DNA of 64,000 nt, from NCBI RefSeq assembly GCF_028606985.1, contig NZ_CP117416.1:3572001-3636000 (forward strand), given 5' to 3'. This document shows, piece by piece, positions 14,959 through 31,291 of this stretch. How positions within the stretch are numbered: the stretch's first letter is position 1; every line of letters starts with the position of its first letter. The DNA comes from Paenibacillus kyungheensis (GTDB lineage: Bacteria > Bacillota > Bacilli > Paenibacillales > Paenibacillaceae). The translations under genes and the position numbers were made by a program. The notes under the pieces were generated by a model, which was given only the letters and a program-made list of their open reading frames with translations, did no database searches and was not told the DNA's origin.

Positions 14959-15804
14959 TCACTCCGTTTCTATACCTATCCAACTCGCCATTCTGCCGGT
15001 TGTTCCTCCGTCAGCTCGATACGAGAAAAAAAGATCGTGGTTACGGTAAGTACACCAATTACTCATTTCGATATGGTCAGCAGGAATTCCTGCAAAAATC
15101 ATGAATTGTCGATTTAATTGTTTGAGGTCTAGCCAAGTTTTACCATTATCACCCGGACGGGCATAAAGAGGTTGTTCACCATTACCCATTAACTTGCTTT
15201 TCCAAACGTTTACGGCATCCATCACTTTATCATCGACTTCATAACTTTCGCCACCGATAGAAGGACCTATCGCAGTATGGATATCAGATATAACACTTCC
15301 ATATTGCGTTCTCATCGCTTCGATCATTTCACCTGCAATATTAGCGACTGTGCCTTTCCAACCTGCATGAGCAAGCCCTACGACTTGTTGTACAGGATCT
15401 ATAAAGTATAGCGGCACACAATCTGCATAAAACGAAGTTAATAAGATACCTGGTACATTGGTGATTAATCCATCGGTATTTTGAAAAGCACTTTCTCGAT
15501 CAAGCCAACCTTTGCCTGCATGTTCTGCTGTAACGATCTCTATATGATTACTATGTACCTGTTCACCAGATACCCAGTGAGTATAATCAAACTTTAATTC
15601 ATCGCATAATAGTTTGCGATTTTGCAATACATCTTCCGGTTGATCTTCTACATGATAGGCGAGATTAAACGAATCATAAGGCGCTTTACTGACTCCGCCT
15701 TTACGTCCGGTGAATCCTGCTGTGATTCCTTGACTATAGGCAGAAGTATCTAACTCAAATAATTCAGGTCCGCTCTCTATCGTACGGCTTACAAACTTCT
15801 CCAT
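14959..15804 (-). CDS. ylmD: YlmD, LACC1/YfiH-type purine nucleoside-cleaving enzyme
   Basis: Family once annotated as polyphenol oxidase or laccase; members such as YlmD act on adenosine and inosine (phosphorylase and deaminase activities). The zinc-site motifs FYADCVPLYF, GLAHAGWKGT and AIGPSIGGESYEVDD are present. ATG 15804 (MEKFVSRTIE) lies six bases after AGAGGG; a longer frame begins at 15825 with a non-ATG codon. The protein is 281 residues. It heads the ylm cluster; upstream lies a terminator and an unrelated secreted protein rather than the sigE-sigG genes seen in spore formers. Confidence 0.93.
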   Translation of the reverse strand: MEKFVSRTIESGPELFELDTSAYSQGITAGFTGRKGGVSKAPYDSFNLAYHVEDQPEDVLQNRKLLCDELKFDYTHWVSGEQVHSNHIEIVTAEHAGKGWLDRESAFQNTDGLITNVPGILLTSFYADCVPLYFIDPVQQVVGLAHAGWKGTVANIAGEMIEAMRTQYGSVISDIHTAIGPSIGGESYEVDDKVMDAVNVWKSKLMGNGEQPLYARPGDNGKTWLDLKQLNRQFMIFAGIPADHIEMSNWCTYRNHDLFFSYRADGGTTGRMASWIGIETE

Positions 15805-15867
15805 GTATATCCCTCTATTTTTCAAATTTTCAATGCATTAATTATACTCTAATGATATAAAAACAAC

Positions 15868-15917
15868 AAAAAAGTTCTTTCTACTTTTAAATTTAGCTAA
15901 AGTAGAAAGAACTTTTT
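15868..15917 (-). terminator. Terminator after the secreted protein gene
   Basis: A near-perfect inverted repeat (AAGTTCTTTCTACTTT against AAAGTAGAAAGAACTT) with T-runs on both sides lies just past the stop of the 303-residue secreted protein gene. It can terminate in either direction and isolates this gene from ylmD. Confidence 0.88.
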
Positions 15918-15932
15918 TAAACAAATATCAAA

Positions 15933-16844
15933 TTATGAGGTTGAGCCAATAATAAAACTATTTTTCCAAGAAAATTTATCACCTAGTTCGGAAAATACTA
16001 TACTAACCGGACCAATGGTAGCAGAACCAGGTACATCTGAATAAGGATGAGTATACGCACTAGCAAAAAGTCCAGTAGTACCTTTAAGACTAACAGGTAT
16101 TCTAATTTCAGAAGCTAGATAACCACTTCCCCCGCTAGTTAATGTCTTAAATTTAGCATGAACACCATATACTGAAGATTCATCAATACTCTTGAAACCA
16201 TTGACTGGCTGAAATACTCCTTTAGACCCTACTCCAGTAACTCCTGATTGCCAAGCCATTCCAACGCGATCAGTAGTTGCTATAATAGGCAAAGCACTCC
16301 ATGAAAAATTTGTTCTATAAGAATACTTAAACTCTTTTGCATTAGCAGTTTTACCAATATATATTAATGAGCCACTACCTTTAAAAATCCCTTTACCATC
16401 ACTGCCCATCAAACTTTTGTTCTGTGGTATCCCTAAGCTCTTTAGATCATTTTGTTTTATTTGTTCAATCTCAGATTTATTGCTATTATCTATACTATGA
16501 TTTTTACCTTCTAAATCTGTATAAGACTCTTCATAGTTTTCGGTATTGGTATTTACTTTTATTCCTCCTTCACTGATGATTTCATTTTTTTCTTGATCCG
16601 ACATCAGACTTATTTCATCCTTATTAAAATTCATTGCTGCTAAGAAATTATCTTTCTCGTTAGTTTCTAGTTTATCTTCAGGATTTTGAATTGCTTCGAT
16701 TCTTCCATCTTGTAATTCTGTTACATAATTGTTCTCTACTATCTGCGTATTACTTTTTTGTTCTAATTGATTCGCATTTGAAAAACTTGGAAAAAGAGCT
16801 AGGGATATAGCTAAAGTAACTCCAGTAAATATTTTTTTGTTCAA
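15933..16844 (-). CDS. Secreted protein of unknown function between ftsZ and ylmD
   Basis: Not recognised. The 303 residues start with a clear signal peptide (MNKKIFTGVTLAISLALFPS, then FSNANQ, likely cleaved near residue 25). A charged Asn/Glu/Lys-rich region to about 145 contains FLAAMNFNKDEISLMSDQ. The C-terminal 150 residues are rich in Gly, Ser and aromatic residues (SLIYIGKTANAKEFKYSYRT), suggesting a beta-rich domain. The start is TTG behind AGGAGG. It has its own terminator and lies below the ftsZ terminator, so it is a single-gene unit. It occupies the place where spore formers carry spoIIGA-sigE-sigG, and its codons look more AT-rich than the flanking genes, which would fit acquisition. 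Confidence 0.85.
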   Translation of the reverse strand: MNKKIFTGVTLAISLALFPSFSNANQLEQKSNTQIVENNYVTELQDGRIEAIQNPEDKLETNEKDNFLAAMNFNKDEISLMSDQEKNEIISEGGIKVNTNTENYEESYTDLEGKNHSIDNSNKSEIEQIKQNDLKSLGIPQNKSLMGSDGKGIFKGSGSLIYIGKTANAKEFKYSYRTNFSWSALPIIATTDRVGMAWQSGVTGVGSKGVFQPVNGFKSIDESSVYGVHAKFKTLTSGGSGYLASEIRIPVSLKGTTGLFASAYTHPYSDVPGSATIGPVSIVFSELGDKFSWKNSFIIGSTS

Positions 16845-16925
16845 AATAAGCCTCCTGTATATATGTATTTTGAATATTTGTAAAGTCTAACACTACTGAA
16901 CTATAATGTCTAATTTACCAAAAAA

Positions 16926-16966
16926 AGAAAAAAGTATGTAACTAATAAAAGTTACATACTTTTTTA
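16926..16966 (-). terminator. ftsZ (dcw cluster) terminator
   Basis: The minus strand forms AAGTATGTAAC / GTTACATACTT with an 8-base loop followed by six T, 11 bases past the ftsZ stop. It ends the division cluster transcript. Confidence 0.9.
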
Positions 16967-16976
16967 AGGTTTAATT

Positions 16977-18125
16977 TTAATCGTTTTTATGACGAGAACG
17001 ATTGCGTAGGAATGTTGGAATATCCAACTGATCTCCACTAGGTTGTGTAGTATTTGTATTGTTGTACGGACGTGATGTCGGAGCTTTGTCTTCTGCATTC
17101 GTTGGTGCAGTAGGTGTAGATTCATCGACAGGCTGAGACGGACGACGTACCGGTGGCAATGGTTGTGCTGGTTTGTGTTCAAATCCTGTTGCGATAACAG
17201 TAACTTTGATCTCTTCTTTGAGGTCTTCATCAATAATCGCACCGAAGATCATATTTACTTCTGGATCAGAAGCTGAAATAACGATCTCTGCTGCTTCATT
17301 GACTTCATACAAGGAAAGGTTATTACCGCCAGTGATGTTCATAATCACACCACGTGCACCTTCGATCGAAGTTTCAAGCAATGGACTCATAATCGCTTTA
17401 CGTGCTGCTTCTGCTGCACGATTTTCTCCTGTAGCTTCACCAATACCCATCAAAGCTGAACCACGTTCAGTCATGATCGTTTTTACATCGGCAAAGTCAA
17501 GGTTGATTAGTCCCGGTACAGCAATTAGATCAGAGATACCTTGTACAGCTTGACGCAACACATTATCTGCTTCACGGAAAGCTTCTAACATCGGTGTCTT
17601 TTTATCTACAATTTCAAGCAAGCGATCATTAGGAATAACGATCAATGTATCGACTTTTTCTTTCAATCCTTCGATACCTAGCTCTGCTTGTGAAAAACGC
17701 TTACGTCCTTCAAATGTAAATGGACGTGTTACCACACCTACTGTTAATGCGCCACATTCTCTAGCGATTTCAGCAATAACCGGTGCTGCACCTGTTCCTG
17801 TTCCGCCACCCATACCCGCAGTAACAAAAACCATATCTGCACCTTTAAGAGTGCTCATAATCAAATCACGAGATTCTTCAGCTGCTTTTTTACCTACATC
17901 TGGATTAGCTCCTGCACCCAAACCACGTGTCAGTTTATCACCGATTTGCAATTTGTGTTCAGATTTAGCCAAGTGCAATGCTTGAGCATCAGTATTAACT
18001 GTTATAAATTCCACGCCTTGAACACCATTCTCAATCATACGGTTAACAGCATTACTTCCGCCGCCACCTACACCGATGACTTTGATCTGGGCTAGGCTTT
18101 CCATTTCGAAATCAAATTCTAACAT
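16977..18125 (-). CDS. ftsZ: Cell division GTPase FtsZ
   Basis: Tubulin-like GTPase that forms the Z ring. The 382 residues include the GTP-binding glycines in [14 protein letters not shown] and the tubulin signature [10 protein letters not shown] (about 106-115), the catalytic loop [11 protein letters not shown], a proline- and threonine-rich linker from about 320, and the C-terminal peptide DIPTFLRNR that binds FtsA, SepF and other partners. ATG 18125 follows a GGGGGAG site. It lies 63 bases after ftsA and is followed by a terminator. Confidence 0.98.
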
Positions 18126-18188
18126 ACTTTCCCATCTCCCCCTCGTTGTCCATGAATAGCTTGTTTCAATATAATATTGAACTCTAGC

Positions 18189-19445
18189 TTATATAAACTC
18201 ACTGAACATATTTTTTAACCGTTCAATCAAGCCCGGCTTGGCACTGCTTTCCGGGGTCGAGGTTGTTTTGTTACGTGCTGGTGCTTTTTTGTTAGCTCCA
18301 GCCGTGCTTCCACCACCACGGATATTGCGGATGACATTGTACAAAATGCCTACCCCGCTTGTATAAGCAGGATCACGTACACCAATATAATCAGGAACTG
18401 CTATTCTTACAGAAGCTGCCAGTTCTTCGCGAGCTACTTCTAAAACGCCCGGCATTGAAACTGTACCTCCTGTCAGTATATAACCACCAGCAAGCTCTTG
18501 ATAACCGAGTCTTGTGACTTCTTGACGAATCAGTTGAAAAATTTCTTGCACACGAGGCTCAATAATGGCTGCTAAATCTTGCTGTGTAAATTCTTTGTCT
18601 ACGTTACTGCCAATACGCATAACTTTGAATACTACATCAGATGCAGCATCATCTATCAAAGCACAACCATATTTCAGTTTTACTTTTTCAGCATGCTCTG
18701 TTAATGTGCGTAATCCATAAGCGATATCATTCGTTACAAATTCTCCACCAATCGGTAAAGTTGATGTCGCTTTAAGCGAACCTTCTTCAAAGATTGCAAT
18801 AGTAGATGAACCTGCACCAATATCAACTAGAATCGATCCCATCGATTTTTCATCTTTGGACAAAGCCAATTGACCTGCACCTAATGAAATCAATACAAGA
18901 TCTTTGATACGCAAATCTGCTTTTTCTACACAACGAAGAAGATTATGGATCGAAGTTTTAGCACCTGTAATAATAGTAGCTTCTACTTCTAGACGAACAC
19001 CAATCATTCCGCGCGGGTCTTGAATTCCTTCTAACCCATCTACCACGTACTGTTTAGCAACAACGTCAATAATTTCCCGTTCAGGTGGCAGAGCGATTAC
19101 TTCTGCCGCTTTCAAAACACGTTCGATATCTTCTTCACCAATCTCACGATCTTCATTGGATACGGCAACTACTCCGTGGCTCGTTTGAAGTCCGATATGA
19201 TTGCCTGAAATACCAACGATAACTTCAGATATCTGAATGCCGACCATACGCTCAGCATGATCAACAGCACTACGGATGGATTGCACAGTTTGATCAATAT
19301 CTACGATCGCACCTTTGCGAATTCCTTCCGAGTCGGCAGATCCAACTCCAATAATATTAAAGGTTCCATTGTTGATTTCCCCGATAATAGCACGAACTTT
19401 GGATGTACCGATGTCCAAACTAACAATGATGTCATTGTTGCTCAA
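18189..19445 (-). CDS. ftsA: Cell division protein FtsA
   Basis: Actin-like ATPase that tethers FtsZ to the membrane. The 418 residues show the actin-fold phosphate motifs VSLDIGTSKVRAIIGE and LVDIGAGSSTIAIFE, the 1C-domain region, GGYILTGGTVSMPG, and a C-terminal amphipathic membrane helix GLIERLKNMFSEFI after a basic, Ala/Thr-rich linker. The start is TTG behind GGAGGTG. It is the penultimate gene of the dcw cluster. Confidence 0.97.
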   Translation of the reverse strand: MSNNDIIVSLDIGTSKVRAIIGEINNGTFNIIGVGSADSEGIRKGAIVDIDQTVQSIRSAVDHAERMVGIQISEVIVGISGNHIGLQTSHGVVAVSNEDREIGEEDIERVLKAAEVIALPPEREIIDVVAKQYVVDGLEGIQDPRGMIGVRLEVEATIITGAKTSIHNLLRCVEKADLRIKDLVLISLGAGQLALSKDEKSMGSILVDIGAGSSTIAIFEEGSLKATSTLPIGGEFVTNDIAYGLRTLTEHAEKVKLKYGCALIDDAASDVVFKVMRIGSNVDKEFTQQDLAAIIEPRVQEIFQLIRQEVTRLGYQELAGGYILTGGTVSMPGVLEVAREELAASVRIAVPDYIGVRDPAYTSGVGILYNVIRNIRGGGSTAGANKKAPARNKTTSTPESSAKPGLIERLKNMFSEFI

Positions 19446-19810
19446 GCCCTAGGCACCTCCCGCTATCCTGTAATAAAAACGGTGTATTCGAATATTTTAG
19501 AATCACACCATTATGTGTTGGAAATTGAATTTCCGAAATAAATTGTTTCCCAAAATTGCTCTCTACATTAATATTCAACATTACATATGCTTTCCCTCTT
19601 TTTTCTCCAAACTTTTTGAACACTGGTTTGCATTATAAAAAGGTTGAAGAAAAAACGATCAGGTAGGCTATTTCACCGTAAATTTTTAAAAGTTTACAAA
19701 ACTTTAATATCTACAACTTTCATTCTAGCATCTTTCGGTCATTGCAGAAAGTATTGTATCTATATGATTTTACAAAACGTTCGCATTTATCGATTACAAA
19801 AGGCTAAATC
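19446..19810. other. Gene-free spacer between divIB and ftsA
   Basis: A 365-base gap without a convincing gene. A 63-codon minus-strand frame (19432-19623) lacks a ribosome site and family resemblance. In B. subtilis this interval holds ylxW, ylxX and sbp; no trace is seen here. The middle is AT-rich and may hold an ftsA promoter, but I cannot pick one with confidence. No T-tailed terminator hairpin is evident. Confidence 0.6.
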
Positions 19811-20596
19811 TTACGGTGCAACTTCCTGATCTGCTACGTCTTCCGGGTTGAAAGGCGTATAGGCATCTGCTTCAAGCATTGTAATGACACCTGGCGGTTG
19901 AGTCTCAATAACCTGATTTAGATACTCTACTTTGTCTGCCAAAAGTGACACACTTGTGATCACTTCAAAGCGAGAACGTGTATAGATTTTGATCCGGTCT
20001 GGAAACGAAGGCGTTGGTGAAGGGCTAATTTCAGAAATATCAGAAGACAATTCATTAGGAATAGTCCCTAATACTTTGCATAATTGCACTTTCTGAGCTT
20101 CAAAATCAGACCATCCTGTAAGCACAGGTTTTTCAACAGCCACTCCGCGTGTATCTGCTCTTACCAAAGCTCCACTTTGTAAAATAGCTGTGAGTTCTCC
20201 TGAATCTTGCAGTTCATAAGCAACTACAGGATATTCTTTGATCGTCACATCAATTTGACCTGGAAAATGCTTGATTACTTCTGCATCTTGGATCGAACTG
20301 ATCGTTAATAATCGCTTTTCGATCGTTGTAGCCGATGTACCAAAAAAAGCATTTCCTTTCGCCAATCCACTTACATTTAACAAATCGGTTTTGGCTGTAA
20401 ACGTATTTCCTTTAAACGTGATCTGAGATATTTTACCAATAGGCGAAAACCAAAATACAATTCCGATTACGACTAAAAGGATAAGCGACAATAAAATAAT
20501 CAGTCGCGTTTTACGAGTTATTTTTGGATTAAAGGAAGGTCTCCGATTGCCAGCCGGTTTGTTATTTGGAATAACAGTTAATTTTTGCTTTACCAT
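19811..20596 (-). CDS. divIB: Cell division protein DivIB/FtsQ
   Basis: Bitopic division protein that works with FtsL and DivIC to control septal wall synthesis. A basic cytoplasmic tail is followed by one membrane helix (LIILLSLILLVVIGIVFWF, about 30-50), then a POTRA domain starting ISQITFKGNTFTAKTDLL and the FtsQ/DivIB domain. About 261 residues from ATG 20596, which lies six bases behind GGAG; the longer frame begins GTG 20608. An acidic tail ends the protein. It heads the divIB-ftsA-ftsZ section. Confidence 0.93.
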   Translation of the reverse strand: MVKQKLTVIPNNKPAGNRRPSFNPKITRKTRLIILLSLILLVVIGIVFWFSPIGKISQITFKGNTFTAKTDLLNVSGLAKGNAFFGTSATTIEKRLLTISSIQDAEVIKHFPGQIDVTIKEYPVVAYELQDSGELTAILQSGALVRADTRGVAVEKPVLTGWSDFEAQKVQLCKVLGTIPNELSSDISEISPSPTPSFPDRIKIYTRSRFEVITSVSLLADKVEYLNQVIETQPPGVITMLEADAYTPFNPEDVADQEVAP

Positions 20597-20691
20597 AGCG
20601 ATCTCCACAAATCTTTTTTAGGTTTTATTCAATATAGTCTTTTGTACCAACTGAATTCAGTCATCCACTTGTCTGAAATAAAGTCTTTGTC

Positions 20692-20700
20692 ATTATATCA
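20692..20700 (-). promoter_or_regulatory. Possible divIB promoter (extended -10)
   Basis: In the 147-base gap between murB and divIB the minus strand has TGA-TATAAT, an extended -10 element (TATAAT at plus 20692-20697). The -35 region (TTAGGT-like) is weak. It could give divIB-ftsA-ftsZ an internal start. Confidence 0.45.
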
Positions 20701-20755
20701 TGCAGAATGCTGAATACCTAAATGTGCTTTGGCTACGGTTTGATACGGTTCACTT

Positions 20756-21661
20756 TTACTTTTCACCCATCAGATATACTTCAGGTTGAAGTTGTACGCC
20801 AAACTGTTTAGATACTTCTTGTTGCACATATGATATTAACTCTAATACATCAGCTGCGGTACTTTGTCCCACATTTACAATAAAGTTAGCATGTTGAGTC
20901 GATATTTCGGCTCCACCAATCCGGTACCCTTTGAGTCCTGCTGATTCGATTAAGCGAGCAGAATGATCTCCAGGTGGATTGCGGAAAACACTTCCTGCTG
21001 AAGGTTGCTGTAAAGGTTGTGTAATCCGTCTACGATCTTTATGTTTATTCATTTCAGCCATAATGGTATCGCGATTGCCTGTTTTCATTTGAAATGAGGC
21101 TTCAACAACAATTCCAGGTTGTTCTTGCAAAATCGAATGACGGTAAGCATATTGCATATCTTCTAAGCTATAGGTCACGATTTGTCCATCATGAAGAACT
21201 ATTCGAGCAGACTGCAAAATCTTAGATGTATCTGATCCATGAGCTCCTGCGTTCATATAGACAGCGCCACCTACAGACCCCGGAATACCGCCAGCAAATT
21301 CAAGACCAGATAATCCTTTTTTAGCAGCTAAAACACAAAGTTTGACGACAGAGTGTGCACCACCTGCAATAATCCGATCTTCTTCAAATCTAGCGTAATC
21401 AAAACCTTCGCCTAATTTGATAACCACTCCGCGAATTCCTTTATCTGCGACTAACAGATTAGAACCTCGTCCTAACTGTGTCCACTGAATATCATGCTCA
21501 TGCAAAATAGTCATAAGTGTACTTAGCTCATCTTGATTGCTGGGTATCACCAGTACATCAGCAGGTCCGCCAATTCTCCATGTTGTATATTTTGCTAACG
21601 GTTCATTGATAAGAACTTGACCGACAGCATGCTGGGATAAAAGATTCATCCACTGCTGCAT
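20756..21661 (-). CDS. murB: UDP-N-acetylenolpyruvoylglucosamine reductase
   Basis: FAD enzyme that reduces UDP-GlcNAc-enolpyruvate to UDP-MurNAc in the cytoplasm. The 301 residues carry the FAD-binding TTWRIGGPADVLV and LGRGSNLLVADKG, GIPGSVGGAVYMNAGAHG, and the catalytic SAGSVFRNP and GAEISTQHANFIVN motifs, typical of type II MurB. ATG 21661 follows AGAAGGGGGAAG. It lies 18 bases after murG. Confidence 0.97.
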   Translation of the reverse strand: MQQWMNLLSQHAVGQVLINEPLAKYTTWRIGGPADVLVIPSNQDELSTLMTILHEHDIQWTQLGRGSNLLVADKGIRGVVIKLGEGFDYARFEEDRIIAGGAHSVVKLCVLAAKKGLSGLEFAGGIPGSVGGAVYMNAGAHGSDTSKILQSARIVLHDGQIVTYSLEDMQYAYRHSILQEQPGIVVEASFQMKTGNRDTIMAEMNKHKDRRRITQPLQQPSAGSVFRNPPGDHSARLIESAGLKGYRIGGAEISTQHANFIVNVGQSTAADVLELISYVQQEVSKQFGVQLQPEVYLMGEK

Positions 21662-21679
21662 TTTGTTAACTTCCCCCTT

Positions 21680-22801
21680 CTAGCGGGACAGAACACCTGA
21701 CAAACGCTTCATTTCTTCAACAATCAAAAATGCAGATTGAGGTGTACCCAAGCTTGTTGCTGCTTTGGACATGTTCTGTCTAACCTCTTCATCACTCATT
21801 ACTTTATCTATTCGAGCTAACAATGATTCCCCTGTCAACTCACGCTCTAATAATACTTCTGCTGCGCCTGCTTTTTGTAAAGCCCAAGCATTAGCTTCTT
21901 GATGATTATTTGTAACATTAGGTGACGGTATTAATATAGATGGCGTACCTAATGAAGTGACCTCAGCCAACGAAGAAGCACCTGCACGACCGACTAACAA
22001 CGAAGTAGCTGCTAGAACTTCGGGCATATTAGGAATATACGGAAGTACATGAAGATAATAAGGAAATGATCCTACAGCATCTCGAATACGTTCGCGAATT
22101 TCTTCGTAATAAATTTCGCCTGTTACAAATACATAATGTACTGCTGGATTGTTTTGTTTGAGCAAAGGAGCAATTTGAACCATTGCTTCTACAAGTGCTC
22201 TAGCGCCCCGGCTACCTCCTACAACTAATACAATCTGTGCATCAGCAGGTAGACCTAAGGAAGCAAGTCCACGTTCACGATTTGCATTTTGTACCATAGT
22301 CGCCCGCGGGTTGCCTGTAAACATCACATGCTTTGAACGCGGAAAACGATTCACTGAATCTTGAAAACTTACAGCTACTGTACTTGCATATCCACTCAAA
22401 AATTGATTCGTTAATCCAGGAATCGCATTTTGCTCATGTACAATAGTTGGTATTTTAAGCTTGGCAGCAGCATACACTACAGGACCACATACATAGCCAC
22501 CTGTTCCTATGACTACATCAGGCTTAAATTCTTTCAGTAACTGTTTTGAAGTTTTCACACCCTGAATGAAGCGATTTATCGTTTTGAAATTTTCTAAAGA
22601 AAATAACTTGCGTCTAAAACCGGTAATATCAATAGATTCAAAAGGGATTTTTTCTTCAGGAACAATTTTGTTCTCCAATCCTCTTTTGCCACCAATATAT
22701 AAAAATTCAGCATCTAATCCTTCGGTCTCACACTGTTGAGCAATCGCAAGTGCTGGATAGATATGACCACCTGTACCTCCGCCGGTCAATACGACCCGCA
22801 T
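21680..22801 (-). CDS. murG: Lipid II synthase MurG
   Basis: Peripheral membrane GlcNAc transferase that converts lipid I to lipid II. The 373 residues have the GT28 N-terminal VVLTGGGTGGHIYPALAIAQ, VIGTGGYVCGPVV, TIVHEQNAIPGLTNQ, and in the C-terminal half LVVGGSRGARAL and GRAGASSLAEVTSLG for UDP-GlcNAc. ATG 22801 follows AAGGAGGTGA. Upstream, a 111-base gap leads to murD; the spoVE/ftsW gene usual at this place is absent. Confidence 0.97.
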   Translation of the reverse strand: MRVVLTGGGTGGHIYPALAIAQQCETEGLDAEFLYIGGKRGLENKIVPEEKIPFESIDITGFRRKLFSLENFKTINRFIQGVKTSKQLLKEFKPDVVIGTGGYVCGPVVYAAAKLKIPTIVHEQNAIPGLTNQFLSGYASTVAVSFQDSVNRFPRSKHVMFTGNPRATMVQNANRERGLASLGLPADAQIVLVVGGSRGARALVEAMVQIAPLLKQNNPAVHYVFVTGEIYYEEIRERIRDAVGSFPYYLHVLPYIPNMPEVLAATSLLVGRAGASSLAEVTSLGTPSILIPSPNVTNNHQEANAWALQKAGAAEVLLERELTGESLLARIDKVMSDEEVRQNMSKAATSLGTPQSAFLIVEEMKRLSGVLSR

Positions 22802-22912
22802 GATAAATCACCTCCTTAATTCAAATTTCATCATTGTTATTTATTCGTTAAGTAGCTGAATGATCTATTGTAAAGTAGATGTACGTTTTATGCTACTTAT
22901 CTCAGTTGAACC

Positions 22913-24391
22913 TTATAGCTGGTGTACAGCTTCTTTAAAAGCACGACCACGTTCTTCATAAGACGAGAACATATCCCAGCTTGCACATGCAGGAGATAAT
23001 AATACAATATTATCCGGTTCAGCAAACATTGCTGCTTGCTCTACTGCTTGCTTAATAGCTAGTTCTGGTTGCTCTGATTCTTCGATAATTTGCACTTTTG
23101 TAATTCCAGCAAGTTCTGCCACTTTAGCTAATTTGTGACGGGTTTGTCCCAAAACGACTAACGCTTTAACCTGTTGCTGAAATACAGGTAACAAATCCAT
23201 ATAATCAGAACCACGATCCAGACCACCAGCAATCAGTACAATGCCTTTATCTTGAAAAGCGGATAATGCTGTCATCGTTGCTTTGGCATTGGTTGCTTTG
23301 GAATTGTTGTAATACTGCACTTGATCATGTTCTTTTACATATTCTAAGCGATGTTCTACACCTCGGAAATCACGTAAGACATCAGCCAGATCTTGAGGAC
23401 GACATCCAGCTGTAATAGCAATCGCGCAAGCTGCTAACGCATTGGCGACATTGTAACGACCAGGTATACCTAATTCTTGTACAGGTAAAATAGCCACTTC
23501 TCCATCTTGATCACAATACATCATTGTACGCGGTAATTCATCTTCCATTTCTGGAATATAGGCAGGAGATACGTATAATCCTGCTGATAATGGTGAATGC
23601 GTAGCTGAAGCGGATGGCTTGGCTGCTGATATATAATTGCCCAAGTTCTCTGTGATCGAAAATGGAATTAAAGTACCTGCTTGAATATAAGGCACAAGGC
23701 TACGACAATAACTGTCATCCCAATTAATGATTGCTGTATCGTCTTTGCCTTGATTTTCAAAAATTTTACGTTTGGAAGAAACATAATCATCCATCGAACC
23801 ATGATAATCCAGATGTGTCTCTGCTACATTTAATAGACAAGCGATTTTCGGATTAAAATCACGTGTGCCTTTCAATTGAAAGCTACTTAATTCGGCTACG
23901 ATCCAATTCTCTGGCTGAGCATCACTAACAGCTTCACATAATGGAATCCCTATATTACCACCTACAATAGGATGAAGATGATTAGCTTCCAACATTTTGC
24001 CTACCCAAGTTGTTGTGGTCGTTTTACCGTTAGATCCTGTAATCCCAATCATAGGCACATCAGAGATACGATAAGCTAATTCAACTTCTGTGATCACTTC
24101 TATCCCTAGATCGAGTGCTTGTTTGATTGGAGGAGCTGTATAAGGAATACCTGGATTTTTGACCATAAGGGCGATCCCTTTATGAATCAAACCTTCCGGA
24201 TGCCCTCCACAAATCACTTGAATATCCAAAGCTTCTAACTCTGCTGCTTCTGGTGATTGTTCTCTTGGCTTCAAATCGTTAACCGTTACGATGGCTCCCA
24301 GACGATGCAAAGCTTTGGCTGCTTCTACGCCACTTCGTGCTAATCCGATTACGATCACTTGTTGTCCACGATATGTCTCAGGATCATTCAT
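22913..24391 (-). CDS. murD: UDP-MurNAc-L-alanine:D-glutamate ligase
   Basis: Adds D-glutamate to UDP-MurNAc-L-Ala. The 492-residue Mur ligase has the Rossmann N-terminal VIVIGLARSGVEAAKALH, the ATP loop GITGSNGKTTTTTW, the middle-domain motif LNVAETHLDYHG, and C-terminal YYNNSKATNAKAT with LIAGGLDRGSDY. ATG 24391 follows AAGGGG, four bases beyond mraY. The length is at the upper end for MurD, mostly from an insertion around residues 255-290. Confidence 0.97.
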   Translation of the reverse strand: MNDPETYRGQQVIVIGLARSGVEAAKALHRLGAIVTVNDLKPREQSPEAAELEALDIQVICGGHPEGLIHKGIALMVKNPGIPYTAPPIKQALDLGIEVITEVELAYRISDVPMIGITGSNGKTTTTTWVGKMLEANHLHPIVGGNIGIPLCEAVSDAQPENWIVAELSSFQLKGTRDFNPKIACLLNVAETHLDYHGSMDDYVSSKRKIFENQGKDDTAIINWDDSYCRSLVPYIQAGTLIPFSITENLGNYISAAKPSASATHSPLSAGLYVSPAYIPEMEDELPRTMMYCDQDGEVAILPVQELGIPGRYNVANALAACAIAITAGCRPQDLADVLRDFRGVEHRLEYVKEHDQVQYYNNSKATNAKATMTALSAFQDKGIVLIAGGLDRGSDYMDLLPVFQQQVKALVVLGQTRHKLAKVAELAGITKVQIIEESEQPELAIKQAVEQAAMFAEPDNIVLLSPACASWDMFSSYEERGRAFKEAVHQL

Positions 24392-24394
24392 GTA

Positions 24395-25363
24395 TTACAA
24401 CCCCTTGCTCAAATAAATTCCGATCACTGCTAATACTAGACTAACTGCCCAGAATGTAGTTACTACACGCCATTCAGACCAACCTGACAATTCAAAATGA
24501 TGATGAATCGGCGCCATCTTAAAGACTCGTTTCCCGTTTCTTGTTTTGTAAGATACAACCTGTATTACAACAGACAGCAATTCAATCACGAAAACAGCAC
24601 CAATAATTAAAAAGAGCAATTCGCTTTTAGTTACAATCGCTATGCCACCAATCGCTCCGCCTATACCCAAAGAACCCATATCACCCATAAATACTTTAGC
24701 TGGATGCATATTAAATATTAAAAATCCAATCACAGCACCGATCATAGCTGCTGCACATACTGCTGCCGCAGGTGAAGTCGCTTGAACCGCTACTACTGCA
24801 TATGCTGCAAAAGCTATCGCACTTACCCCGGACAATAATCCGTCTAATCCATCGGTAAAGTTAACCGCATTACTGATCGCCAGCAACATAATCACAATAA
24901 ATGGATAATAAAACCAAGGACCCCAATCAAATGAAAATGATGTAGCAGGAATACCTAATGCTGTACTATGTCCGCTTTTGAGCAAAATATAACAGACAAT
25001 TGCAGAAAATAACAACTGTCCAAACAACTTTTGTTTTGCTGTTAGTCCAAGTGAACGTTTTAAACCAATTTTGATAAAGTCATCCAAAAACCCTACTAAC
25101 CCGAATCCAAGTGTAGCCACCAATAACACCCAAAAGTTAGTATCTACTACAGAAAATTTTACGTACGCTAATGTAAAAGCAATCATAATAATAATACCGC
25201 CCATAGTAGGCGTGCCTGCTTTTTTCAAATGACTCTGTGGTCCATCATCACGTACTTGCTGTCCAAACTTCATACGGCGCAATACCGGAATTAAAAGCGG
25301 TGCAGCAATCACTGCTAATACAAATGAAACTGCTGCTGTTAAAAATAATATTCGAAAATCCAT
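24395..25363 (-). CDS. mraY: Phospho-MurNAc-pentapeptide translocase MraY
   Basis: Integral membrane enzyme that makes lipid I from UDP-MurNAc-pentapeptide and undecaprenyl phosphate. The 322 residues show about ten hydrophobic segments and the signature cytoplasmic loops KKAGTPTMGGI, the Asp-rich GFLDDFIKIG, SNAVNFTDGLDGLLSG, VFMGDMGSLGIGG and MAPIHHHFE. ATG 25363 follows CTGGAGGAG. It lies between murF and murD in the typical order. Confidence 0.97.
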   Translation of the reverse strand: MDFRILFLTAAVSFVLAVIAAPLLIPVLRRMKFGQQVRDDGPQSHLKKAGTPTMGGIIIMIAFTLAYVKFSVVDTNFWVLLVATLGFGLVGFLDDFIKIGLKRSLGLTAKQKLFGQLLFSAIVCYILLKSGHSTALGIPATSFSFDWGPWFYYPFIVIMLLAISNAVNFTDGLDGLLSGVSAIAFAAYAVVAVQATSPAAAVCAAAMIGAVIGFLIFNMHPAKVFMGDMGSLGIGGAIGGIAIVTKSELLFLIIGAVFVIELLSVVIQVVSYKTRNGKRVFKMAPIHHHFELSGWSEWRVVTTFWAVSLVLAVIGIYLSKGL

Positions 25364-25369
25364 GTCGTT

Positions 25370-26779
25370 TTACTCCTCCAGCGCCTCTGCGTTACTTGTT
25401 GAATCAGGCATCAGCGCCTGTACGACTTCTTCTAACTTCATCCCGCGCGATGCTTTAAATAAAATAGCATCTTTCTCCTGAGCCATTTGCAATAGATCGT
25501 TAATCAGTTCTTGTTTGGAAAGATAAGAATGAATCTGAGAAGCATCTAATACTTTAGCAGCTCCATTAGCTATCTGTTGTCCAAGCACACCATACGTGAA
25601 TAACAGATCTGCTTGTCCATCGATATATTTTCCTACTTCCTGATGATATATCGCTTCCTCTTCGCCCAACTCTAACATATCACCGAGCACTGCAATTTTA
25701 CGATGATATCCTTTGAGATTACCTAATACGTCTATAGCGGCTTTCATTGAAGTAGGACTTGCATTATAAGCATCATTTAACAAAGTGATTCCATTACGAC
25801 CTTGAATGATCTCAATTCTCATTCCTGTCAGTTGTAGCTTGGATAAGCCTTGACGGATCTGTTCTGCTGTGACCCCATAATGTTGAGCTACTGTTATCGC
25901 TGCTAAAGCATTAGTCACATTGTGCATACCTAGCAAAGGCAATGTCCATGCTTCGTCTGCTTCACTATTTGTTGTGAAAACAGTATGTTTTCCTTGAAAC
26001 ATTACCCCTGTTGGATACACATTGTTCGTATGATCCAGCCCAAATGTTATTTTACGCATCTCTTTTTGCTCAAATTCGGGTTCCGCCAAAATTTGTTTTA
26101 ATAAAGGTTCATCACCTAAATAGACAAGTAAGCCTTCTGAACGTAATCCACTGACAATCTCTAATTTGGCACGTGCGATTTCTTCTCGACTGCCCAATTG
26201 CTGAAGATGAGATTCACCAATATTGGTAATAATCGTTGTCTCCGGATGAGCGATATTTGATAGCAGTTCAATCTCACCGCGTCCACTCATACCCATTTCT
26301 AAAATCAAGATTTCAGTCTGTTCAGGCATTGCTAATATGGTCAAAGGCAATCCTATATGATTATTGAAATTACCTTCTGTTTTGTGCACTTGATATGCTT
26401 CTGCTAGCAAAGCATAAACGATATCTTTTGTTGTCGTTTTACCATTCGAACCTGTAATACCGACTACTTTTACACCTGTTTGTTGAACATACGCTTCAGC
26501 TAGTTGTTGTAGTGCTTGTAGAGTATCTTGAACAATGACTATATTTCCAGACGGTGGTGTTCCATGATCATGTTGCCATAATGAAGCTACCGCTCCTTCA
26601 GTTAACGCTGATGTCACAAATTCATGTCCATCGAACTTTTCACCAACAATAGGAATAAATAATCCGCCTTCAACCAATTGACGGGAGTTAATACTAACGC
26701 CTTTTAAACAGGTATCTGCTGAACCTTGAAGCTGTCCACCACATATATCGGCTATTTGACCGAGTGTTGTATTTATCAC
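25370..26779 (-). CDS. murF: UDP-MurNAc-tripeptide:D-Ala-D-Ala ligase
   Basis: Completes the pentapeptide precursor. The 469 residues have the ATP loop GITGSNGKTTTKD, EMGMSGRGEIELL, LNDAYNASPTSMKAAID and AVLGDMLELGEE, which separate MurF from MurD and MurE. The start is GTG, sharing four bases with the murE stop (GTGA), so translation is coupled. Finding murF inside the dcw cluster, rather than next to ddl as in B. subtilis, fits Paenibacillaceae. Confidence 0.97.
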   Translation of the reverse strand: MINTTLGQIADICGGQLQGSADTCLKGVSINSRQLVEGGLFIPIVGEKFDGHEFVTSALTEGAVASLWQHDHGTPPSGNIVIVQDTLQALQQLAEAYVQQTGVKVVGITGSNGKTTTKDIVYALLAEAYQVHKTEGNFNNHIGLPLTILAMPEQTEILILEMGMSGRGEIELLSNIAHPETTIITNIGESHLQQLGSREEIARAKLEIVSGLRSEGLLVYLGDEPLLKQILAEPEFEQKEMRKITFGLDHTNNVYPTGVMFQGKHTVFTTNSEADEAWTLPLLGMHNVTNALAAITVAQHYGVTAEQIRQGLSKLQLTGMRIEIIQGRNGITLLNDAYNASPTSMKAAIDVLGNLKGYHRKIAVLGDMLELGEEEAIYHQEVGKYIDGQADLLFTYGVLGQQIANGAAKVLDASQIHSYLSKQELINDLLQMAQEKDAILFKASRGMKLEEVVQALMPDSTSNAEALEE

Positions 26780-28263
26780 TTGTAAAGACCCCTTATCGCT
26801 TCTTTGGCTACCAAACGATCATCAAAATCCAATGTTTGTTGACCGATAATCTGATACGTCTCATGACCTTTGCCCGCAATCAATACTACATCTCCTGGCT
26901 TAGCCATTTCAACCGCTTTTTCAATCGCTTGTCTGCGATCAACAATAGATTCGTATTTGTCTGTAGCAATCTGTTGCTCTTCTAATCCTTTTTGAATATC
27001 TTCCAAAATAGTAGCTGGCTCTTCTGTACGCGGATTGTCTGAAGTGATCAATACATAATCACTATATTTAGCAGCAATCTGTCCCATCAAAGGTCGTTTG
27101 CTCCGATCACGATCACCACCGCATCCAAAAACAGTAATAATATTACCTTCTGCAAATTCATTGATCGTACGCAATACATTTTCCAATCCATCCGGTGTAT
27201 GAGCGTAATCCACAATCACTGCAAAAGGTTGACCGCCATCTACAGACTCTACACGCCCATCTACACCGGCAATCTGTTCAAGACTAGACTTTATGTGTTC
27301 TAACGGAATATTCTCAATTAGAGCAGCTGTGATCGCTGCTAAAGCATTATAAACATTGAATTTGCCGACCATTTGAAGTGTGATTTCTGTATTGCCTTTA
27401 AACGTATCCACTTGGAAAGTCGTGCCTTGAGATGTAATTCTAATCTGTGAAGCATGTACATCGGCAGGATGATCGACTCCATATGTAATCACATCTGCAG
27501 CTGTAATTTTACGGAAATATTCAGCAGCAGGATCGTCGTTGTTCAAAACAGCATATTTACGCTTTGCAGGATCTATTTCATAACGGTTCCCCAAACGTGC
27601 AAAAAACAGCCCTTTGGCTGCAATGTATTCTTCCATCGTCTCATGATAATCGAGATGGTCTTGACTTATATTTGTAAAAATAGCTGTACGGTAATCTGTT
27701 CCTTTTACTCTTCCTTGCTCTAGAGCATGAGAGGATACTTCCATCACACAACTTTTCACATCTGCTTGCACCATTTCGTGTAACAAACGTTGTAATTCTA
27801 ACGCTTCTGGTGTTGTACGAGGCATAGGTGTTGCTGTACCGTTATAACGCATTTCAATAGTTCCGATCAACCCTGTATTGATATGCGCATCATTCATAAT
27901 ACGCTCAATCAGATAAGAAGTTGTGGTTTTACCATTTGTTCCTGTAATTCCGATCATATTTAACGTTCTACTTGGATATTCAAAAAAATGATCAGATAAT
28001 ACAGCCATCGCGTGACGGCAACTACTAACGATCAATTGTGGAATATCTAATTCAAGTTGACGTTCTACTACTAAGGCAGTAGCACCTTTTTGAATCGCTT
28101 GAGCGGCATAATCATGTCCATCTACTGTAAAACCAGGCAGACAGATAAACAGATCACCTGACTTCACTTTGCGAGAATCAATCTCCATACCGGATATTTT
28201 CGTTTGAACATCACCTAGCACTTGAGATGTGATCAGCAGATGTGCTGCTTCTGACAAAAGCAT
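26776..28263 (-). CDS. murE: UDP-MurNAc-dipeptide:meso-diaminopimelate ligase
   Basis: Adds the third stem-peptide residue. The 495 residues have the ATP loop GITGTNGKTTTSYLIE and MEVSSHALEQGRVKG, and the substrate-selecting loop reads SDNPRTEEP. The DNPR motif marks diaminopimelate-adding MurE and predicts DAP-type peptidoglycan. It follows pbpB after a 111-base gap with a terminator-like hairpin, where spore formers usually have spoVD, and overlaps murF by four bases. Confidence 0.97.
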   Translation of the reverse strand: MLLSEAAHLLITSQVLGDVQTKISGMEIDSRKVKSGDLFICLPGFTVDGHDYAAQAIQKGATALVVERQLELDIPQLIVSSCRHAMAVLSDHFFEYPSRTLNMIGITGTNGKTTTSYLIERIMNDAHINTGLIGTIEMRYNGTATPMPRTTPEALELQRLLHEMVQADVKSCVMEVSSHALEQGRVKGTDYRTAIFTNISQDHLDYHETMEEYIAAKGLFFARLGNRYEIDPAKRKYAVLNNDDPAAEYFRKITAADVITYGVDHPADVHASQIRITSQGTTFQVDTFKGNTEITLQMVGKFNVYNALAAITAALIENIPLEHIKSSLEQIAGVDGRVESVDGGQPFAVIVDYAHTPDGLENVLRTINEFAEGNIITVFGCGGDRDRSKRPLMGQIAAKYSDYVLITSDNPRTEEPATILEDIQKGLEEQQIATDKYESIVDRRQAIEKAVEMAKPGDVVLIAGKGHETYQIIGQQTLDFDDRLVAKEAIRGLYK

Positions 28264-28314
28264 AGTTTTACCTCTTTTCTAAATATTAATAACGATACCC
28301 GACAAATAGCAGAC

Positions 28315-28344
28315 AAAAGATAGAGTCAGTTGCACTCTATCTTT
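28315..28344 (-). terminator. Hairpin between pbpB and murE
   Basis: The minus strand forms AAGATAGAGT / ACTCTATCTT with a short loop and a weak TTTT tail. An outer pairing ACCCGGCA / TGTCGGGT brackets it at about 28295-28365. It lies 30 bases past the pbpB stop and may act as a partial terminator between pbpB and the mur genes. Confidence 0.55.
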
Positions 28345-28374
28345 GCTGATGATGCCGGGTGATCGTAGATTACA

Positions 28375-30858
28375 TTAATTCGTTGGCGCCCCGGTAGGCT
28401 CTGGAATTTTAAGACTACTTGTAGGGCTTTGCTCTGTACTGCTTTCCGATTTACCCTTACTATCCGTACTACTTTCAGTGGTAGTGCCAGAATCTGTTTT
28501 GGTATCGGAAGATGTTGTATCTTTTGATTCTGTAGCATTTGGATCTGTAGAAGTATCTTTGTCTGTTGAAGACCCTTCAGAAGATGTAGATTCTGTACTG
28601 TCTGTTGCTCCATCTTTTGGTGTAGTGGCTTCAACTGAAGTCGCTGGATCTTCTTCTGTATCGTCGACTCCTGTGACTGTTGCTCGAGCAGATTTAAGTG
28701 TAAGTGTTACAGATCGTCTACCACTACTAGAAGACTCTACCTGTTCAGATACATATCCTTCACCAGTCGCTGTTACTTCTACTTTCATCAACGATAAGAT
28801 TTGCAGAGCATCCCGCAACGATTCACCTTTTAGATCAGGAATACTCATTTTGGTTGGATCTTCTGTCATCAAATAAATGGTTTGTCCGCCTGTCATAGCT
28901 GCTCCACTAGCTGGATACTGCTTGACGACTTTTGTACCTGATCCTACTGTTGTATAGGAAATACCATCTGCAAGCAATTTTTTCTTCGCATCTGCAAGCA
29001 TTTTACCTGTTAGTGTAGGAGCAGTATAGGAAGCCATTAGTTTTTTAGAATCCACTTCTGCTTTAGGTTTTTTTTCACCATCGTCAAAGACTTTAGAAAT
29101 ACCCATATACGGCAACACTTGACTCACGATTTTTTTAAATACTGGAGCTGCTGCTGTACCTCCGCCTAGCTTCGAATCTGACGGTTGGTCAATCACTACG
29201 ATCATAGCGATCTTAGGATCATTAGCAGGTGCAAATCCTACAAAAGATACCACTTGCTTCGTATAATCATACTTACCATTGATAACTTTAATAGCAGTAC
29301 CTGTTTTACCTGCAACACGATAACCATCAATATAAGCATGACGACCTGTTCCAATTTCCTGATCCGAAACGACCTGTTCCAGATAACCACGTACTTTCTC
29401 AGAAGTTAACGGGTCAACCACTTGACGAACGACTTTAGTCTGTGTATTTTCAGTGACTCCTGTATTGGGATCAGTGATCGATTTGACTAGATGTGGTGTT
29501 AATAATTTCCCACCATTGGCTACCGCAGAAATAGCAGCTAACTGTTGAATCGGTGTCACCTGTACCAATCCATGTCCGTAAGCAGCGGTTGCTACTTCTG
29601 TGGGAATATTAGGATGGAAAGTAATAGCACCTTTAGCTTCACCAGGCAATTCGATGCCTGTCTGTTCACCAAATCCAAACGAATCGATATATTTACGCAA
29701 ACGTTCTGCACCAAGCATCTTATAACCAAGATTAACAAAAGCTACATTACTTGAACGCTTTAGACCTTCTAAGTAACTAATCGTTCCCCATCCGCTATGA
29801 TTCAAGTCATGCAGTGTTGTACCTCCTACTTGAATAGAACCTGATTGATAAGTAGCATTAGGATTGAATAAATTTTCTTGTACTGCTCCAGAAAGAGTAA
29901 CAATCTTAAATGTAGAACCTGGTTCATAGATCGCTTTGACAGCCAGATTACGGAAATCTTTAGGATCGGTAACTTCATTAAACTTATTAGGATTAAAAGT
30001 TGGCATATTTGCCATACCTAGAATTTCCATCGTATTAGGATCTGCTGCAATCACTGTAATACTTTCAGGTTTCAATTGTTCATAAGCATCTTTCATAGCT
30101 TGTTCAATATAATACTGAATTGTCTCATCAATCGTTAACGTCAGATTATCTCCATCTTTAGCAGGAGTATAGACATCTTTGGAATCTGGTAATTTATCTC
30201 CTTGTTTATCACGAAGATATTGAATATGACCATCTGTCCCTTTAAGCTTTTCATCATAATACGCTTCAATTCCCGCAACAGCATTGCCATCTTTGTTCGT
30301 ATAACCAATAACATGAGCCGCTAATTCGTTTTTAGGATAAAAGCGTTTGGAATCAGCGCTTAAATACACACCGACATCCCATTTTTGACCGGTTTTTTCT
30401 TTCAGTTGTTTGATAAAAGCATTGATTTGATCAGCTTTTTCTTGATCGATTAGACGACCACCTGAATTGAGCTCACGCCAAGTACGAAGTTGACCGATAT
30501 TATCTCCACTGGTCAATACAGAAGTGGCTTGCTTTTCAATTTCTGTTTCATCGGTGCCTAAAATAGCGTGAAGCTGGCTTACAACATCACTTTTAATCCC
30601 ATACTCAGCGATGATTTTAGGATTAAGAGCAACATTATAAGCCGGAGCATCCATTGCTAGATCATTACCATTACGGTCTGTAATCGTACCACGTTTAGCT
30701 GAAATATCGCTGTTAGCTGTCCATTGTTTAATAGCTTTGTCAGTCCAGTTACCTGTTTGAACCACTTGTAGCCAGAATACTTTAATAATCAGTACAGCAA
30801 AAAAGAGGGTAATACATCCCCCTATAAATAAAGTACGAAGTTTTATTCTCTTATTCAC
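28375..30858 (-). CDS. pbpB: Division-type class B penicillin-binding protein with PASTA domains
   Basis: Septal transpeptidase (PBP2B/FtsI type). A short basic tail is followed by one membrane helix (LFIGGCITLFFAVLIIKVFW), the dimerisation domain, and the transpeptidase domain with YEPGSTFKIV (active Ser), KRSSNVAFVN and VAGKTGTAIKV. Two PASTA domains occupy roughly residues 600-725. The last 110 residues are nearly all Ser, Thr, Asp, Glu and Gly, a tail unusual in length. GTG 30858 lies eight bases after GGGGG and just past the ftsL stop; the frame also extends to ATG 30894 without a ribosome site. No second, SpoVD-like paralogue follows. Confidence 0.93.
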   Translation of the reverse strand: MNKRIKLRTLFIGGCITLFFAVLIIKVFWLQVVQTGNWTDKAIKQWTANSDISAKRGTITDRNGNDLAMDAPAYNVALNPKIIAEYGIKSDVVSQLHAILGTDETEIEKQATSVLTSGDNIGQLRTWRELNSGGRLIDQEKADQINAFIKQLKEKTGQKWDVGVYLSADSKRFYPKNELAAHVIGYTNKDGNAVAGIEAYYDEKLKGTDGHIQYLRDKQGDKLPDSKDVYTPAKDGDNLTLTIDETIQYYIEQAMKDAYEQLKPESITVIAADPNTMEILGMANMPTFNPNKFNEVTDPKDFRNLAVKAIYEPGSTFKIVTLSGAVQENLFNPNATYQSGSIQVGGTTLHDLNHSGWGTISYLEGLKRSSNVAFVNLGYKMLGAERLRKYIDSFGFGEQTGIELPGEAKGAITFHPNIPTEVATAAYGHGLVQVTPIQQLAAISAVANGGKLLTPHLVKSITDPNTGVTENTQTKVVRQVVDPLTSEKVRGYLEQVVSDQEIGTGRHAYIDGYRVAGKTGTAIKVINGKYDYTKQVVSFVGFAPANDPKIAMIVVIDQPSDSKLGGGTAAAPVFKKIVSQVLPYMGISKVFDDGEKKPKAEVDSKKLMASYTAPTLTGKMLADAKKKLLADGISYTTVGSGTKVVKQYPASGAAMTGGQTIYLMTEDPTKMSIPDLKGESLRDALQILSLMKVEVTATGEGYVSEQVESSSSGRRSVTLTLKSARATVTGVDDTEEDPATSVEATTPKDGATDSTESTSSEGSSTDKDTSTDPNATESKDTTSSDTKTDSGTTTESSTDSKGKSESSTEQSPTSSLKIPEPTGAPTN

Positions 30859-30874
30859 TGTTGTTTCCCCCGTT

Positions 30875-31291
30875 TTACTTGCCTTGTGTCTCATCCGTCG
30901 TCGAGGTTGTTGCTTCTGTTCCCTTTACCCGGGATACTTGGATCGGAGCCGTATCCGTAGGCTCTATGTAACCTAGAGCAGTGGCACGTTCAACAATTTG
31001 ATCTTGTAACGAATATTTGCGAATTTCGTTTTGTGTCGTTTGCTTTTTAATACTTGCCGTTTCACTATCCATACTTTGAATATTTTTATTCACTTCATAG
31101 ATATGTGCATATTGAAAAACAATTACACTTGCTACTGTCGCACAAAAAATGATAGTCATCAAATAAAGCAGCTTTTCTTTCGTTGGAAGTGCGCTACGAC
31201 GTAAGACTACCTTTGTAGTCTCACGATATCGTCGAGCAGCTTTTTCAGCCGATTGTTCTTTGACAGCTAGATTGCCGCGCGTATAAGCCAT
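30875..31291 (-). CDS. ftsL: Cell division protein FtsL
   Basis: Small bitopic protein that partners DivIB and DivIC at the septum. The 138 residues consist of a basic cytoplasmic part (KAARRYRETTKVVLRR), one membrane helix (LLYLMTIIFCATVASVIVF, about 42-60), and an extracytoplasmic coiled coil (NKNIQSMDSETASIKKQT) ending in a Thr-rich tail. Identification rests on position between rsmH and pbpB plus this topology. ATG 31291 follows GAGGAG. Confidence 0.9.
   Translation of the reverse strand: MAYTRGNLAVKEQSAEKAARRYRETTKVVLRRSALPTKEKLLYLMTIIFCATVASVIVFQYAHIYEVNKNIQSMDSETASIKKQTTQNEIRKYSLQDQIVERATALGYIEPTDTAPIQVSRVKGTEATTSTTDETQGK

Follow-up and report, generated by a model that had tools for sequence, protein, structure and literature searches.

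The endospore programme was very probably lost once, in an ancestor of the clade that holds Paenibacillus kyungheensis, P. nuruki and Saccharibacillus, with the regulator Spo0A kept for transition-state control. This reading starts from a 64,000-nucleotide stretch of the one-contig P. kyungheensis genome (positions 3572001-3636000; the window), in which the dcw cluster of division and wall genes lacks its sporulation genes, and it extends to the whole genome, the genus and the family. The genome measures 5,260,882 bp and is 99.98% complete; the published complete genome of P. kyungheensis KACC 18744T is a single circular chromosome with 39.3-39.5% G+C. We compared the window with 80 named reference loci fetched around MurB (the best 80 of 590 confirmed), with a genus set of 16 genomes that form one genus in the taxonomy used, P. 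kyungheensis included (genome sizes 4.3-6.3 Mb), and with 394 Paenibacillaceae genomes searched with the SigE model. The named strains come from plant or food sources (magnolia flower, leaves, cabbage seed) and other Saccharibacillus from soils. By MurB, the closest named locus is that of P. nuruki (93% identical; runner-up 66%), a species whose source we take from its name to be nuruk. A collinear relative that bears the spore genes, G117, served as the reference for the comparison of sites and as the source of a joined protein query.

A preliminary description of the window had stated that spoVD, spoVE and spoIIGA-sigE-sigG-ylmC are missing from the dcw cluster, and both the order of the open reading frames (ORFs) and the reference loci bear this out. 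On the minus strand the cluster runs mraZ, rsmH, ftsL, pbpB, murE, murF, mraY, murD, murG, murB, divIB, ftsA (18189..19445; FtsA, 142.6 bits), ftsZ, an ORF of 303 residues and pgeF (ylmD). Here the names of pbpB, murD, murG, divIB, ftsA, ftsZ and pgeF have a Pfam basis, the remaining ones come from reading and collinearity with G117, and the genes that flank the missing ones nearly abut. The spoVD site of relatives is reduced to 111 bp (28264..28374) between murE (26776..28263, minus strand; 69% identity with the product of the collinear ORF in G117 across 495 residues) and pbpB (28375..30894, minus strand), compared with 2162 bp and a SpoVD of 794.7 bits in G117. The spoVE site is likewise 111 bp long (22802..22912), between murG (21680..22801, minus strand; Glyco_transf_28 and Glyco_tran_28_C) and murD (22913..24391, minus strand; Mur_ligase_M), and in G117 takes up 1143 bp, where SpoVE scores 505 bits. 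The spoIIGA-sigE-sigG-ylmC site (15826..16976) has ftsZ (16977..18125, minus strand; Tubulin and FtsZ_C) at its upstream edge and pgeF (14959..15825, minus strand; Cu-oxidase_4, 281.3 bits) at its downstream edge, with a distance between flanking matches of 1181 bp as against 3448 bp in G117. Remnant searches at E ≤ 0.1 found nothing of spoVD or spoVE at their sites, and tblastn at the same threshold found nothing of spoIIGA-sigE-sigG-ylmC at the third.

The product of pbpB, the division transpeptidase (Transpeptidase, 268.3 bits, and PASTA), is the sole penicillin-binding protein (PBP) remaining in the cluster, and it is PbpB rather than SpoVD (583.9 bits, against a SpoVD cut-off of 688). The preliminary description had also counted "spoVE/ftsW" as absent, which proved half right: the spoVE site is empty, but an intact FtsW is encoded about 80 kb away at genome positions 3508079-3509413, scoring 367.5 bits with the FtsW model (cut-off 337.5) and 388.2 bits with the SpoVE model, under the cut-off of 448.8. 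The arrangement expected of relatives is real, since SpoIIGA, SigE, SigG, SpoVE and SpoVD are all found in 66 of the 80 named loci. Another 13 show all but one to three of the five, apparently as the stretch ended short of the site, and P. nuruki (L007) is the only one of the 80 that lacks every one of the five where the sites were covered.

Across the whole P. kyungheensis genome, nothing exceeded the SigE-model cut-off of 348.6. The matches are SigA, SigH, SigD and a SigB-like factor only, the best, at 67.6 bits, being SigA, which is encoded in the window (sigA, or rpoD; 59380..60507, minus strand; 677.5 bits with the RpoD model, cut-off 572) and is 27% identical to a relative's SigE. Because the SigE model also detects SigF (103.9 bits) and SigG (116.9 bits), both at more than 100 bits, SigF and SigG are excluded in this genome as well. 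SigH, which in B. subtilis acts in stationary phase and feeds into sporulation, is kept as a sigma factor (G000:C1:4438488-4438991, where G000 is the P. kyungheensis genome). A SpoIIID candidate (22.1 bits, below cut-off) sits in a DeoR/GlpR-type regulator and was rejected. For SpoVD, SpoVE, YabG, SpoVT, YqfCD and some others the search covered the syntenic sites and one fetched fifth of the genome, rather than the whole of it, and they are absent there; in that fifth the SpoVD and SpoVE searches picked up only PbpB, FtsW and, weakly, a second PBP. Among the genes that the preliminary description had proposed to look for genome-wide, sigE, sigG, sigF, spoIIGA, spoIIE and gerA were not found in P. 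kyungheensis, and spo0A and ftsW are both present, spo0A even though the sigma cascade is absent.

The loss is not confined to this genome. SigE-model matches at E ≤ 1e-30 occur in 378 of the 394 family genomes (376 above the cut-off), and the 16 without one are exactly all 16 of the P. kyungheensis genus; in the 15 genus genomes other than P. kyungheensis, SigE was asked only at this threshold, with no match. Most relatives show at least two SigE-model matches at E ≤ 1e-30, the second of which we infer to be SigK, so that SigK would likewise be absent from the genus. A joined query from G117, made of SpoIVA, SpoIVB, SpoIIIAE, SpoIIIAA, SpoIIGA, SpoIIM, Gpr, a SpoIIP part and a SpoIIE part, matched nothing at E ≤ 1e-5 in the 16 genus genomes, and all nine parts were matched in four of four relatives, the query source G117 included. 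Furthermore, small acid-soluble spore proteins (SASPs) and GerA germinant receptors were found in none of the 16, versus 4/4 relatives for each. At the dcw cluster, pgeF follows ftsZ without SpoIIGA between them in all 16 (in P. kyungheensis with the 303-residue ORF between), and SpoIIGA follows ftsZ in 13 of 14 genomes outside the genus, the exception, G034, having SigE about 2.4 kb downstream. The proposal that the lineage has dismantled sporulation is thus supported by the absence of SigE, the nine core proteins or parts, SASPs and GerA from 16/16 genomes. The comparison of dcw synteny carries it further than first claimed, with P. nuruki likewise emptied and the loss spanning the genus. 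Outside the genus, the SigE-model matches of G170 and G273 (1.3e-75 and 9.1e-77) stay under the cut-off; in these two genomes SigE may be missing or diverged.

A midpoint-rooted tree of FtsA and FtsZ, built from 30 genomes and 29 of the 80 named loci (59 rows), places all 17 SigE-less rows on a single branch with support 95/92. This clade joins P. kyungheensis and P. nuruki with Saccharibacillus (G003 being taken as S. brassicae ATSA2T); P. nuruki L007 and G009 have identical rows and may be one species. The SigE-less rows sit among genomes with SigE and their sister lineages have the programme, and a primitive absence is rejected by the tree together with the emptied syntenic sites. Of 200 bootstrap trees, 92% require a single change. 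The alternative would be independent losses of sporulation in Saccharibacillus and in the P. kyungheensis/nuruki group, as the long branch (0.33) to the Saccharibacillus group and the 8% of bootstrap trees that do not show one change would allow. We consider this unlikely: both groups are without everything tested across the 16 genomes, both are without SpoIIGA between ftsZ and pgeF, and both lie on one supported branch.

Comparison with G117 indicates how the genes went. The regions compared are largely collinear, and those of P. kyungheensis are without the G117 genes recognized by NCBIfam or Pfam as SigF, SpoIIAA, SpoIIAB, SpoIIM, YtfJ, SpoIVB, SpoIIIAA-AG, SigG, SpoIIGA, YlmC, SpoVE, SpoVD, SpoIVA, YpjB, YqhR, SpoIIE, YabG, SpoVT, YabP, YabQ, SpoIIP, Gpr, YqfC, YqfD and RsfA; spmA, spmB, dacB and dacF take their names from the order of genes or from models of a generic kind. 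At 16 of 17 sites the distance between matches of retained neighbours is smaller in P. kyungheensis than in G117, shrinking from 7222 to 679 bp at spoIIIA, from 1559 to 332 bp at spoIVB, from 823 to 163 bp at spoIIM and from 3997 to 124 bp at spoIVA. At the ytfJ site, which includes ORFs taken for spmAB by order, the P. kyungheensis gap is the larger (6481 versus 4036 bp). With spoIVB gone, recN now lies ahead of spo0A. At 14 of the 17 syntenic sites a search for remnants at E ≤ 0.1 returned nothing. The 679-bp gap (G000:C1:3407167-3407845) holds a 32-residue, 37.5% match to SpoIIIAF, a possible relic or chance.

Spo0A itself was retained. It is present above the cut-off and without stops in all 16 genus genomes, the P. 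kyungheensis protein scoring 402.7 bits with the Spo0A model (cut-off 200). In 12 of the 16 orthologues, those taken in by the alignment (which left out four orthologues and the third Spo0A copy of G002), neither LDIIMPHLDG of the receiver nor SRVERAIRHAIE of the output domain varies; the output domain carries substitutions in the Saccharibacillus group. The ratio of non-synonymous to synonymous substitution rates (dN/dS) was computed for 16 pairs, of which nine were unsaturated and seven had saturated dS; it is 0.021-0.048 in seven unsaturated orthologue pairs and 0.041 and 0.050 in two paralogue pairs. AbrB is kept in 20/20 genomes, and in every one TGTCGAA stands within 220 bp upstream of abrB as the longest invariant alignment block, where the background frequency (115 copies counted over both strands of 1,044,000 bp) would give about 0.012 per 220 bp of a single strand. 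In P. kyungheensis it lies just downstream of an abrB promoter resembling TTGACT-17-TATTAT, and in G007 its distance from the abrB start is greater and the promoter is beyond the stretch examined. B. subtilis Spo0A represses abrB via such boxes. A 128-residue protein with a receiver domain, which we read as Spo0F, shares 77% identity with its G117 counterpart and has no match to a Spo0F-specific model.

Taken together with a retained circuit, a single loss is best pictured as follows. The common ancestor of the clade of P. kyungheensis, P. nuruki and Saccharibacillus very probably lost the sigma cascade, engulfment, feeding-tube, coat, SASP and germination functions, the genes going operon by operon and mostly leaving short junctions with the housekeeping neighbours in order, as is seen in P. 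kyungheensis. Phosphorylated Spo0A would bind the box just downstream of the abrB promoter and repress abrB, and on entry into stationary phase this repression would release stationary-phase genes (biofilm, antibiotics and the like). The transition-state branch would survive and the sporulation branch be gone, and Spo0A, as far as its sequence tells, seems to keep an older stationary-phase role. Alternatively, Spo0A might be a decaying leftover, or serve something unrelated to abrB. The output-domain substitutions of the Saccharibacillus group would fit decay, but the frame is open in 16/16 genomes, dN/dS is low, SRVERAIRHAIE is unchanged in the aligned orthologues, the putative box precedes abrB in 20/20 genomes and extra copies exist in 4/16, and we regard this alternative, too, as improbable.

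The extra Spo0A-like regulators, two of them in G002, lie at five loci (L249-L253: G002:C1:3628052, G004:C1:523535, G015:C1:42296, G007:C5:181751 and G002:C2:26124). One extra gene of G002 lies near lexA and beside glnA, with the same flanking ORFs by reading in G004 and G015. The sporulation master regulator is thus duplicated in bacteria without the spore programme.

Several points weigh against a single ancestral loss with a retained Spo0A circuit. The tree is drawn from FtsA and FtsZ only, is rooted at its midpoint and gives one change in 92% rather than all of its bootstraps. SigF and SigG were searched genome-wide only in P. kyungheensis. The weak matches of 32, 17 and 13 residues at the spoIIIA, spoIIP-gpr and yqfCD sites may be relics or chance. 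All spore-former Spo0A pairs are saturated in dS, which leaves the dN/dS values above without a control. The 20 abrB promoters are related rather than independent, no TGTCGAA occurs in the 350 bp upstream of the second abrB-like gene of P. kyungheensis (3443074), and TGTCGAA upstream of abrB is a putative Spo0A box, so named after the box of B. subtilis. The literature speaks on the same side: S. soli, which is outside the 16 genomes, is described with terminal endospores by microscopy, and one introduction calls Saccharibacillus endospore-forming.

The terminal endospores published for S. soli (phase contrast and malachite green) would suit a scenario in which endospores are still formed with highly diverged or different genes. 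We hold this to be very unlikely: the 16 genomes show no SigE-level match, SpoIIE part, SpoIIIAA/AE, SpoIVA, Gpr, SASP or GerA. Moreover, with 90-91% identity between G117 SpoIVA and the SpoIVA of the other three relatives, divergence past detection is implausible. Equally doubtful is the idea that the terminal round bodies in Saccharibacillus, published as endospores, are real resting cells made without known endospore machinery, possibly still under Spo0A, a dormancy form that would have replaced the endospore in the clade. Relocation of the sporulation genes, the main alternative of the preliminary description, is prompted by local absence alone and by the search for SpoVD and SpoVE having covered their sites and a fifth of the genome, but it can practically be dismissed, and is excluded for the genes searched throughout this one-contig, 99.98%-complete genome, given that genome-wide searches for SigE/F/G-like sigmas, the nine core proteins or parts, SASPs and GerA were empty while four relatives were all positive in the nine-part, SASP and GerA searches. 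An assembly artefact is rejected by the agreement of the 16 genus genomes and the single contig.

The ORF of 303 residues (15933..16844, minus strand) is the sole ORF between ftsZ and pgeF and has a signal-peptide-like start by reading; its product is probably secreted. It has no Pfam family, matches phrog_28540 (function unknown; E 9.2e-21) and shares 27.8% identity with a plasmid-borne hypothetical protein of P. peoriae. Because it is present at this site in P. kyungheensis only, one of the 16 genus genomes, it is a later insertion outside the loss, and a role as replacement of the sporulation genes is rejected on the same ground. The preliminary description had the neighbours abut or enclose an unrelated gene; the 111-bp junctions agree with this, but the enclosed gene arrived later.

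The genus is also without the cytochrome bc complex (Rieske, cytochrome b, cytochrome b/c) and the ResA/ResB/CcsB cytochrome c maturation proteins, as seen where P. kyungheensis regions are collinear with G117:C1:3382664-3384841 and 3431873-3435368. A search of the 16 genomes gave weak partial matches only, in 11/16, the best at 1.5e-11 and ten near a thioredoxin-like part. Both the complex and the maturation proteins are all present in three of four relatives. The fourth, G081, keeps its sporulation genes yet is without both, and a strict partnership between the two losses is not supported.

We found no statement of this genus-wide loss in the open-licence PubMed Central (PMC) literature. Events of this kind are known; this case, how far it extends and its conflict with published accounts did not turn up there. 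A genus of plant, food and soil bacteria has, to judge from the genes searched, lost its endospore programme wholesale and kept the master regulator and a putative box at abrB, and, with collinear relatives that have the programme, it offers a natural experiment on the role of Spo0A once sporulation is gone. The loss also bears on the record, in which Saccharibacillus is called endospore-forming and a survey reports sporulation sigmas in 100% of Paenibacillus. That 2025 survey (PMC12826061) applied BLASTP with a threshold of E ≤ 0.05 to 1,460 Paenibacillus genomes and gives SigE/F/K/G in 100% of them. When the SigE, SigF and SigG of a relative serve as queries, P. kyungheensis SigA scores 1e-14, 2e-24 and 2e-22, and at E ≤ 0.05 its SigA, SigB-like factor and SigD all count as matches of these queries. 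Because SigA and other sigmas pass, this cut-off cannot show absence.

Set beside known systems, our results concern the same family and genes as the Paenibacillus survey and differ from its 100% sigma claim. They resemble the asporogenous Firmicutes of Galperin et al. (2012; PMC3533761) in that Spo0A is kept while sporulation genes are lost. Unlike those systems, the lineage studied here keeps none of the core families tested; its loss extends across a whole genus (16 genomes), and a SigE-level match is present in each of the remaining 378 of the 394 family genomes searched. The loss of sporulation among gut Firmicutes (PMC8340488) is likewise a loss at the level of lineages; by the title of that paper it is tied to host adaptation, whereas the genomes studied here measure 4.3-6.3 Mb and belong to strains from plants, food and soil.

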